Below, one piece after another: positions 40,725 to 43,602 of a DNA stretch of 64,000 nt. The number at the start of each line of letters is the position of its first letter. The first letter of the stretch is position 1. The notes under the pieces are model-generated. The model was not told the origin of the DNA. It did no database searches and worked only from the letters and a program-made list of their open reading frames with translations. The DNA comes from Dolichospermum sp. DET69. Lineage in GTDB: Bacteria; Cyanobacteriota; Cyanobacteriia; Cyanobacteriales; Nostocaceae. The stretch spans positions 2,335,501-2,399,500 of the forward strand of contig CP070233.1 in assembly GCA_017355425.1 (NCBI GenBank). Direction: 5' to 3'. The translations under genes and the position numbers were made by a program.

Positions 40725-41189
40725 TCACTGATAAGGTTGTAAAAGATGTTCACCATTGAAGTGAATTAAATGAGTTGCATCTTCCGCTACCCATACATCA
40801 GTCTCCCAAGAAATGTCTGGTAAATACTCCTTCATTGCTTTACGGTTAAGAAAAGCTGTCACCATTACAAGCGGTATTTGAGAGTTTTTAAATAAAGTTT
40901 TCAGTTCAGTCTTACGTTTAGCATCAATTGGACCATGTGATGTTACAGCTTCAATGAGGACTAACCAGTTTTGAAGTTGGAAATGAATAATTATATCTGG
41001 CATTTTTCCATGAGTATCAATTTTAATTCCTAATTTCCATAAAGCTGATTTATCAAAATATGCAAATTTTTCATCTGTATCACCAACATAAATAATATGA
41101 CTATTAAATGTAAATCGCGGACAAAAATCATTAATTATTTTCTCGATTAAAATATTTTTACACCTGGTGAAAGTGAGATTAATTTCAGG
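40725..41189 (-). pseudogene. 5'-truncated BsuBI/PstI-family type II restriction endonuclease
   Basis: The frame is open from 41189 (just after an in-frame TAA at 41190-41192) to the TGA at 40725, about 154 codons. A start codon appears only late (41003). The product matches the C-terminal catalytic domain of BsuBI/PstI enzymes: HIIYVGDTDEKFAYFDKSAL, KMPDIIIHFQLQNWLVLIEA, SHGPIDAKRKTELKTLF, and ISWETDVWVAEDATHLIHFN near the end. The N-terminal DNA-recognition half is missing, and no cognate methyltransferase is nearby. It is a restriction system relic. Confidence 0.85.
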
Positions 41190-41342
41190 TTATTCATAAT
41201 CATTTTATATGGAGATATTTATATGTAATCGCTAAAATATGTTAAAAATATAATCTACTTGAGATTTAATTAAAAAATAATTAACAAATTTCTTGAGCGC
41301 AATTTCATAAAAAAATAGTATAATTAATACAGGCTATTAACA

Positions 41343-41801
41343 AAGACCTCTATTATTATGTCAGTAACCCAGCCCTAAAGGGACTGAGCTTGCAAGAGAA
41401 ATCAAACAAGCTGTACTGACCAGACCACCCTGAGCATAGTCTCAGGGTAGCCGTTATTTGAGTCACGACACCCCGGAATGCGTAGCTAGTTCCCTGCTCT
41501 GTCGCTTGTGATTAAACAGTTGTAAGGTCACTGGAACAGTGTTGCAAGCCTAACAAGCTCTTATAACGCAGTCGAAGCTAACATCACCCCGAAAGGGAGG
41601 CACATCGCGTGCAACACATTATGCGTACAGAGTTGAGAAATTTGAATCGGTAATTGTCCCGTTGAAAGTACATCACAACAGTACCCCGAATTTCCCAACT
41701 CCAAGGCGGTAATGAAAAAAGATTCAATGCCTTTATTACCGCCCGTGTCGCTTCCCTCTCAGCCCTAAAGGGACTGAGTTTCCCGCATACCGCGAGGTCT
41801 T
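41343..41801 (+). ncRNA. Highly structured RNA / IS200-IS605-like non-autonomous element upstream of the ParA-HEPN pair
   Basis: About 460 bases without an open frame but dense in pairing. A GTCAGTA/TACTGAC clamp (41361-41367, 41414-41420) encloses AGCTTG/CAAGCT. Then come ACCCTGAG-catagt-CTCAGGGT, CACTG-gaa-CAGTG inside GCTTG/CAAGC, a long GAGTTGAGAAATT/AATTTCCCAACTC arm (about 41631-41701), GGCGGTAAT/ATTACCGCC (41704-41754), and CTCAGCCC-TAAA-GGGACTGAG (41758-41778). The CAGCCC-TAAA-GGGACTG hairpin also occurs near the left end (41371-41389), and the outer ends are inverted (AAGACCTC, GAGGTCTT). It may be a minimal IS605-type element with an RNA resembling omega-RNA, or a large cis-acting leader. 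GAGG near the end may serve as the ribosome binding site for the next gene. Confidence 0.5.
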
Positions 41802-42869
41802 ATGACAATGGTTCAAAAAATTGCCTTATTTAATCACAAAGGTGGTGTTAGCAAAACGACCACTACTTTTAATTTAGGTTGGATGCTTGCTGCAAAGGGG
41901 AAGAGAGTTATCCTTGTAGATACAGACCCCCAATGTAATCTTACAGGAATAGCACTGAAAGAAGAAACTGAAGATGATGAAGCAAGAATAGAAAATATTT
42001 ACAACACACATTCTAATATCAAGACTGGTTTAGCTCCTGCTTTTGAGTCACAACCACGGGCTATAGAAGCTGTAGATTGTATTCAGATAGAAGGTCAAGA
42101 AGGTCTATTTTTGTTACCTGGTCATGTGGGCTTTGCTGAATACGAAGTAACATTAGGTATAGCTCAAGAACTTACTGGATCAATTCATGCACTTAAAAAC
42201 TTACCAGGTGCGATTTCTGATCTTTTAGAAAAAACTGCTAATAAATTTAATGCTGACTACATTTTAATTGATATGAGTCCCAGTTTAGGAGCAATAAATC
42301 AAAATTTATTAATGATTAGTGATTTTTTCTTAGTACCCACAACTGCTGATTTCTTTTCAGTAATGGCAATAGATTCTCTGGCTAGAATTTTACCAAAATG
42401 GTGTGCTTGGGCAAGAAAAGCAAGCGCAAACCCTATATTAAAAGAAGCAAACTATCCATTTCCTGAATTTAGTTTGAAATTTTTAGGAACTATAGTTCAA
42501 AACTATAGAATTATCAGAGGTAAAGAAACAACAGCATTTCAAACATGGATAGAAAAAATAGAAAATACAGTTAGTAAAACACTAAAACCAATGCTAGAAA
42601 AAAATAACTTGTTGTTACCTAATCAAGTTTATAATCAACAGGGTATAAATGGTAGTTTTACTATGACAAAAATTTCTAACTTTAACAGTTTAATTGCTTT
42701 ATCACAAGAACACTGTACACCAATTTATGCCCTAACACCTGAACAGTTAGACCAGCACGGTATAGTTTTAGAAGCCAATCAAAAAAAGCAAGAAGAATTT
42801 AGAGAAACTTTTTCAGATTTAGCAGACAAAATTATTGCCCTATCATCTACCTATGCAGTCAGCGTGTGA
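41802..42869 (+). CDS. ParA-like deviant Walker A ATPase
   Basis: A 355-residue ATPase. It opens with KIALFNHKGGVSKTTTTFNL (deviant Walker A KGGxxKTT), followed by KRVILVDTDPQCNLTG (Walker A'/acidic switch) and DYILIDMSPSLGAINQNLLM (Walker B). The C-terminal 110 residues exceed a standard ParA (about 260) and include FRGxE-like and coiled stretches. ParA ATPases position DNA or protein cargo, but no parB or partition site is seen. The downstream HEPN gene overlaps it by 17 bases, so the two are translationally coupled. The role may be control or delivery of the HEPN RNase. A start at 41808 is also possible. Confidence 0.88.
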   Translation: MTMVQKIALFNHKGGVSKTTTTFNLGWMLAAKGKRVILVDTDPQCNLTGIALKEETEDDEARIENIYNTHSNIKTGLAPAFESQPRAIEAVDCIQIEGQEGLFLLPGHVGFAEYEVTLGIAQELTGSIHALKNLPGAISDLLEKTANKFNADYILIDMSPSLGAINQNLLMISDFFLVPTTADFFSVMAIDSLARILPKWCAWARKASANPILKEANYPFPEFSLKFLGTIVQNYRIIRGKETTAFQTWIEKIENTVSKTLKPMLEKNNLLLPNQVYNQQGINGSFTMTKISNFNSLIALSQEHCTPIYALTPEQLDQHGIVLEANQKKQEEFRETFSDLADKIIALSSTYAVSV

Positions 42870-43602
42870 GCAATTTCGTATTAGTATTCAGCGTGTTCGT
42901 GATTTAATTTCTATTCATAATTCAGTTAAAGCTCAAGCTACTGCTGCTTTGGATATTTCAGATATTTTACGATCTGCTCTAGTGCTAAGTGTGAGCGCCT
43001 TGGATTATTATGTCCATGAAGTTGTTACATTGGGAATGTTGGAAATACATCGAGGAACACGCTCAGAACCAGCAGCTACGGCTAATACAAATCAATCAGC
43101 GTTTTCAAAATTTAAAGTTTCGCTGGGTAGTGCTAATCAAGATAGAAAAGTTACTATAGATATTGGTTCATGGATAGAGAGTGAAATACAGCAGAATTAT
43201 GGAGATGATTTTTTACAGCAGTCTCATAATATTTCCAGTTTAATTCCTATTATTTCCAACACTATTTTAAATAGATTAAATAATAATTCATGGTTAGAAG
43301 CTGAAATTAGAGAAAGTCTGAGTTATAAAAGTTTTCAAGAACCAGAGAAAATTGCTGAAGCCATTAGGTTGATATCAAATAAGAAATTGTGGGATGAAGT
43401 CGCTAATAAGATGGGTAGAACAGCTAAAGATGTTAAGCAGCAAATAAGTTTAATTGTAGATCGTAGAAATAAAATTGCTCATGAAGCAGATATAGATCCT
43501 TCTTTGGGTTTAGGTAGTCGCTGGAATATAGATGAATCAATGGTTAATGATGCAGTAGATTTTATTGAGCAAGTGGTTGAGAGTATTCATCAAATTTTAT
43601 AG
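42853..43602 (+). CDS. HEPN-domain (RiboL-PSP-HEPN type) putative RNase
   Basis: A 249-residue, all-helical protein. The HEPN catalytic R-x4-H motif is present as RRNKIAHEADIDP near 205. The N-terminal ALVLSVSALDYYVHEVVTLG helix is typical of the RiboL-PSP/MAE_28990 HEPN group. These domains usually act as ribosome- or RNA-cutting toxins in toxin-antitoxin, abortive-infection and other immune systems. ATG 42853 overlaps the end of the ParA gene, and a TTG at 42835 is also in frame. The ParA-HEPN coupling and the neighbouring restriction relic suggest a defence or addiction module (inference). The RNase residues look intact. Confidence 0.82.
   Translation: MQSACEQFRISIQRVRDLISIHNSVKAQATAALDISDILRSALVLSVSALDYYVHEVVTLGMLEIHRGTRSEPAATANTNQSAFSKFKVSLGSANQDRKVTIDIGSWIESEIQQNYGDDFLQQSHNISSLIPIISNTILNRLNNNSWLEAEIRESLSYKSFQEPEKIAEAIRLISNKKLWDEVANKMGRTAKDVKQQISLIVDRRNKIAHEADIDPSLGLGSRWNIDESMVNDAVDFIEQVVESIHQIL

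Follow-up and report, generated by a model that had tools for sequence, protein, structure and literature searches.

HEARO is the RNA scaffold (omega RNA) of IscB and IsrB elements, and HEARO elements often, but not always, contain an open reading frame (ORF) for an HNH endonuclease. They are said to insert 5' of ATGA or GTGA. The guide of an IscB/IsrB RNA lies 5' of the element and outside it. Another case of start-codon placement is found in some clostridia, where group II introns are placed at start codons. According to the available excerpts of PMC9581776, a related IsrB prefers NTGA as the motif adjoining the target, whereas NTG is preferred by an IsrB from Dolichospermum. With respect to proteins, MNT-HEPN toxin-antitoxin systems are among the closest known to the gene pair described below; Anantharaman et al. 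2013 (PMC3710099), in the excerpts available of that paper, proposed a ParA/Soj-HEPN toxin-antitoxin dyad and list Ribo L-PSP-HEPN in an operon with ParB.

The window analysed here is a stretch of 64,000 nucleotides from Dolichospermum sp. DET69 (contig CP070233.1, positions 2,335,501 to 2,399,500). The features discussed below are as follows.

40725 to 41003, minus strand: relic of a BsuBI/PstI-type restriction enzyme (PF06616 positions 70-154 of 154)
41319 to 41324, plus strand: TATAAT, a putative -10 box for parA, proposed from the sequence
41343 to 41359, plus strand: host parA leader adjoining the element and putative part of the guide, matching the empty L119 leader (see below) except for one base
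41360 to 41801, plus strand: ORF-less HEARO element of 442 nt, placed by copy alignments and the empty site
41360 to 41587, plus strand: HEARO RNA (RF02033), 132.1 bits
41794 to 41797, plus strand: GAGG, a candidate Shine-Dalgarno (SD) sequence at the 3' end of the element, read from the sequence
41802 to 41805, plus strand: ATGA, the target-adjacent motif that follows 42 of 43 placed DET69 copies, with its ATG in frame with parA
41808 to 42869, plus strand: parA-like ATPase gene from its conserved start (Pfam AAA_31; conserved MVQKIALFNH)
42853 to 43602, plus strand: HEPN gene (PF18735, by Pfam and homologue alignment), with R-x4-H at 43465-43482

The folded RNA upstream of parA is almost certainly a non-autonomous HEARO element, an ORF-less relative of IscB-encoding IS200/IS605-like elements that is uncoupled from ParA-HEPN. 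A structured non-coding RNA had been predicted before parA, and both family and fold bear this out. The HEARO model matches 41360-41587 on the plus strand with E 3.6e-27 over model positions 1-211 of 211 (Rfam); membership was judged by a full-length covariance-model match scoring above the gathering threshold (83 bits), as this one does. At curated thresholds, two Rfam families are found in the whole window, one tRNA and HEARO. The predicted fold of 41360-41801 has an energy of -142.8 kcal/mol, compared with -110.1 +/- 5.8 kcal/mol in 100 shuffles (z -5.6). No embedded HNH endonuclease ORF is found in the 442-nt window copy, which makes it non-autonomous; this does not affect membership in RF02033, because the Rfam family is defined by the RNA.

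The DET69 genome has 70 matches to RF02033, 53 of them above the gathering score. In a DNA search with positions 41330-41810, 51 matches are listed, and the long ones mostly run from approximately 41360 to the ATGA at 41802-41805: identity between the window element and other copies begins at approximately 41360, continues through the ATGA and then stops. With a tail model built without the target motif, the 3' end could be placed in 43 of 70 DET69 copies; ATGA follows directly in 42 of these and ATAA in the remaining one. In same-genus relatives, the four bases after the element are ATGA in 33 of 34 copies and GTGA in the other. Together, the copy alignments and the tail model define the HEARO unit as 41360-41801. 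The RNA had been predicted to begin at 41343; its first 17 nt are host leader, and the remainder of the span is the element. The window copy is one of many with fixed ends 5' of ATGA or GTGA. Of the alternative offered in the original prediction, an unrelated mobile element that might supply the ribosome binding site, it was the mobile element that proved apt.

One DET69 copy of 1609 nt (L003) has the same ends as the window element and codes for a 427-amino acid (aa) protein with RRXRR and HNH domains, by which it is identified as IscB. Similar proteins of 424-431 aa are encoded by five same-genus copies of 1606-1729 nt (L211, L220, L225, L227, and L231); the RRXRR/HNH domain search covered the L003 protein. 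There are 16 RRXRR and 16 Y1-transposase matches in the DET69 genome, some of them fragments. Two other DET69 copies, L025 and L026, share 98.4% identity with the window element, whose insertion at parA thus looks recent. A second class of HEARO-like RNAs is also observed in DET69 (L048-L063 except L057), most of which lack the GTCAGTAA start and which end in GGTTGAAGCAAACTTTAC or similar.

When the window flanks are joined across the element, they align with the leader of L119 (Dolichospermum sp. ST_sed8) with no gap at the junction: ...CCTCTATTATTAT is common to both, followed by ATGACAATGG in the window and ATTACAATGG in L119. By this alignment, the L119 leader is the empty site of the window element in a close relative, and we infer that a HEARO element inserted into the leader of a parA-hepn operon that already existed, just 5' of ATGA. 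Relatives whose parA leader is similar have no element there. The junction reads ATTA, not ATGA, in four same-genus relatives (L090, L095, L098, and L099), so the ATGA of the window lineage before insertion is presumed rather than seen. The predicted direct junction of the RNA with the parA ATG exists at ATG 41802, which abuts the RNA and belongs to the target motif; relatives instead conserve the start at ATG 41808, in frame and two codons past the motif ATG. A start-like ATG is thus not always the native start, lying 6 nt upstream of it at parA. The parA promoter would be represented here by a -10-like box only: several relatives' leaders have a similar TATA-T and AATACAGG stretch, and TATAAT at 41319-41324 is absent from the list produced by the promoter scan.

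Placement at start codons extends well beyond parA. A motif was called start-like if, in the joined flanks, it was followed by at least 100 codons and preceded by at most 31 in-frame codons, the latter limit having been chosen after part of the data was seen. By this definition, 18 of 43 placed copies in DET69 end exactly at a start-like ATGA, as do 13 of 34 placed copies in same-genus relatives at a start-like motif. In seven genomes from other genera, the count is 12 of 22, at a start-like ATGA or GTGA. The control was 864 kb of the DET69 genome (forty 20-kb stretches plus the window), with genes called by a crude ORF rule; 305 of its 7668 ATGA sites are start-like (4.0%), or 305 of 2675 (11.4%) if only non-disruptive sites are counted. 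HEARO elements in DET69 are therefore found at start codons approximately four times as often as the non-disruptive expectation. Tested against that rate, 18 of 42 gives p 2.4e-7 in DET69, and the pooled count (31/77) gives p 9e-11 with the DET69 rate applied to the relatives. Using the first criterion alone (at least 100 codons after the motif), the DET69 count is 18/42 and that of the control is 838/7668. Outside the genus, the background is 63/1264, drawn from the same loci as the copies.

Copies with an unplaced 3' end were dropped (27/70 in DET69, 6/40 in the same genus, and 18/40 outside it). Same-genus copies were taken from the best-scoring listed: 16 of 29 (G286), 15 of 20 (G229), 6 of 15 (G381), and 3 of 4 (G378). 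Outside the genus, 16 ends were read by eye from pairwise alignments, two were found by string search, and four by the tail model; two of these copies (L266 and L267) have a right flank in common, and L249 opens a 400-codon frame, yet fails the 31-codon limit. No flank at the junction is common to any two of the 77 genus insertions. T precedes the insertion at 61% of starts and 43% of other sites. The insertion-context comparison showed no SD-like context at insertion sites. An SD-like tail was considered as the cause of start placement and rejected, as GAGG and non-GAGG tails both occur at starts in an informal comparison. We found no description of start-codon placement of HEARO/IscB elements in the literature searched, including the available excerpts of PMC9581776, PMC12286853, and PMC9755519, though Weinberg 2009 or Altae-Tran 2021 may note it.

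Six downstream frames illustrate the genes concerned: by NCBIfam, these are HemA, AroB, NDH subunit 4, MreD, and the CtpB protease, with ThiO below the cut-off; the same search gave no match for one further frame or for HEPN. In DET69, a 448-nt element lies between AAGAA and ATGA at hemA (G000:C1:4324261-4324712), and a 488-nt element lies at the same hemA start codon in the genome of another species (G168, L277). The site is empty in 14 of 16 genus genomes searched, with the ATGA start in place. The DET69 hemA element is 97-98% identical to two other DET69 copies and 86-91% identical to that of G168; by sequence the two belong to different subfamilies. A separate insertion in each genome is likelier than a single shared one, and exchange of one element for another is the less likely course. 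On plasmid C of Trichormus variabilis, an iscB-HEARO element (L233 2960-4660) separates parA from parB and runs right up to the annotated ATG of parB; a 94%-identical copy of this iscB element on a Dolichospermum plasmid ends 54 nt before the next annotated gene. In one further DET69 copy (L035, approximately 5141970), the HEARO ATGA opens a frame with P-II-like residues from codon 18 on, which we take to resemble P-II (GlnB); as the resemblance begins only there, the element may add an N-terminal extension.

We tentatively propose that HEARO/IscB elements are start-codon parasites, residing in leaders, where guide and scaffold would be transcribed together from a host promoter, and retained by RNA-guided cutting, even at hemA. 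The RTGA motif is an ATG or GTG start codon followed by A, and for this reason elements would settle in gene leaders. Since the guide is not within the element, its transcription must depend on a promoter beyond the element. At parA, the gene's own promoter (putatively the TATAAT above) would transcribe through the element, giving a transcript of approximately 28 nt of parA leader as guide followed by the HEARO scaffold; given the known layout of IscB/IsrB RNAs, 41343-41359 would be part of this guide. IscB encoded elsewhere in the genome would load the leader-guide RNA and cut element-free alleles (leader plus RTGA), so that the occupied copy would serve as repair template and the element be held in place. 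A Y1 transposase would move the element in trans, and parA would be translated from ATG 41802 or 41808. Leader insertion would thus put the element downstream of a working promoter, in the sense orientation, and leave the protein whole. We consider the odds of the guide and retention step to be about even. With up to three mismatches, the guide matches two sites in the DET69 genome, its source (1 mismatch) and one other site (3 mismatches); a reversed-pattern control gave 3.

The same excess could arise, as we also allow with some reserve, from a transposase that favours transcribed or melted DNA close to promoters. Single-stranded DNA is the substrate of IS200/IS605 transposases, and such a preference predicts the same placement and sense bias as the retention model. 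It is rather unlikely that the excess is a mere effect of target motif and gene density, with in-gene insertions purged. The identity of the motif with a start codon plus A is what this explanation would need, purging appears strong (just 5 of the 77 insertions interrupt an ORF), and the control relies on crude gene calling and on a threshold fixed in part once data had been seen; however, the non-disruptive control rate is 11.4%, as opposed to 18/43 and 13/34 for the elements. The remaining intergenic copies are also biased in orientation: of 35 such copies, 27 point the same way as the gene that follows, against an expected 53% (p 0.003), and 2 run antisense to the genes on both sides, against an expected 28% (p 0.0009), these counts leaving out 11 of 46 non-start copies (six without a called right neighbour and five inside an ORF).

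A role for the element at parA itself is improbable, whether as an element-derived RNA that now regulates parA-hepn as a leader or through a guide-loaded IscB that represses the locus. The element does separate the likely promoter from the start codon, which means that any leader effect would act on parA, and its HEARO match is full length. Against this, the 98.4% identity noted above makes the insertion look recent, no HEARO was found in the 39 relatives' ParA-HEPN loci scanned, and the element interrupts the very sequence that its guide would target. Among the HEARO-free loci are those of four same-genus genomes in which 43, 20, 15, and 2 HEARO matches lie at other sites. A dedicated RNA-ParA-HEPN toxin-antitoxin or immune module, as first predicted from the adjacency of the RNA and its exact junction with the ATG, can be dismissed as extremely improbable, given 70 scattered HEARO matches in the genome, none in the 39 relatives' loci, and the same exact junction at hemA and other genes. 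The co-occurrence proposed as a check was thus not found; elsewhere, the RNA lies beside unrelated genes.

The ParA-like ATPase (AAA_31, E 3.7e-31) and the overlapping HEPN (PF18735, E 1.5e-14) are both as predicted, the conserved HEPN start at 42853 giving a 17-nt overlap with parA. HEPN_RiboL-PSP (PF18735) is the only HEPN family matched at E up to 0.001, and the protein does not fall in the MAE_18760 family. The R-x4-H motif, within the R-x4-6-H pattern of HEPN RNases, is intact in 45 of 45 intact homologues, including that of the window (RNKIAH). ParA adjoins HEPN in all 65 loci fetched by HEPN similarity, the window among them, and the pair also occurs on a Burkholderia glumae plasmid. 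ParA and HEPN form an independent, conserved pair of overlapping genes, and the prediction that the two belong together holds. The pair could be toxin-antitoxin-like, as the 2013 paper proposed for a related HEPN family; HEPN is most likely an RNase effector restrained by ParA and unconnected with the RNA. Two of the 45 intact ParA partners of HEPN (L104 and L108) have SQT instead of SKT in Walker A, and nucleotide binding may be lost there.

The restriction-enzyme relic was also correctly anticipated; encoded on the minus strand, it comprises 92 aa from the C-terminal part of a BsuBI/PstI-type enzyme. In 4 of 35 relatives' loci, all without the HEARO element, ParA-HEPN has related restriction pieces next to it; the relic is therefore probably older than the element, and the restriction enzyme was rejected as part of a module.

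The HEARO element is known in kind, its coupling with ParA-HEPN is absent, and the placement rule is the part worth pursuing. A false RNA-ParA-HEPN module is removed from consideration. The rule suggests a reason for the NTGA motif that can be tested, and likewise a way in which a guide external to the element comes to be transcribed. By implication, an IscB guide-RNA scaffold forms the leader of a set of host genes. If true, start-codon parasitism would mean that elements have replaced the 5' leaders of a sizeable set of host genes.

With respect to known systems, the gene pair resembles the ParA/Soj-HEPN dyad in the excerpts of PMC3710099 in having a ParA/Soj ATPase gene directly 5' of an R-x4-H HEPN gene, and differs in that its HEPN is of the RiboL-PSP type (PF18735), not MAE_18760. 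The element is like the clostridial group II introns in that both are mobile RNA elements accepted immediately upstream of an ORF, although no splicing would be expected here. It has the same ends as the IscB-encoding (IS200/IS605-like, ISC) element L003, whereas the window copy is non-autonomous and would need proteins in trans. Compared with the HEARO/IscB/IsrB omega RNA, it has the same sequence and fold above the curated score and the GTCA start, and differs in lacking an ORF and lying at a gene start. Its type of 3' junction, ATGA or GTGA, fits the NTGA/NTG motif given for IsrB in the excerpts of PMC9581776.
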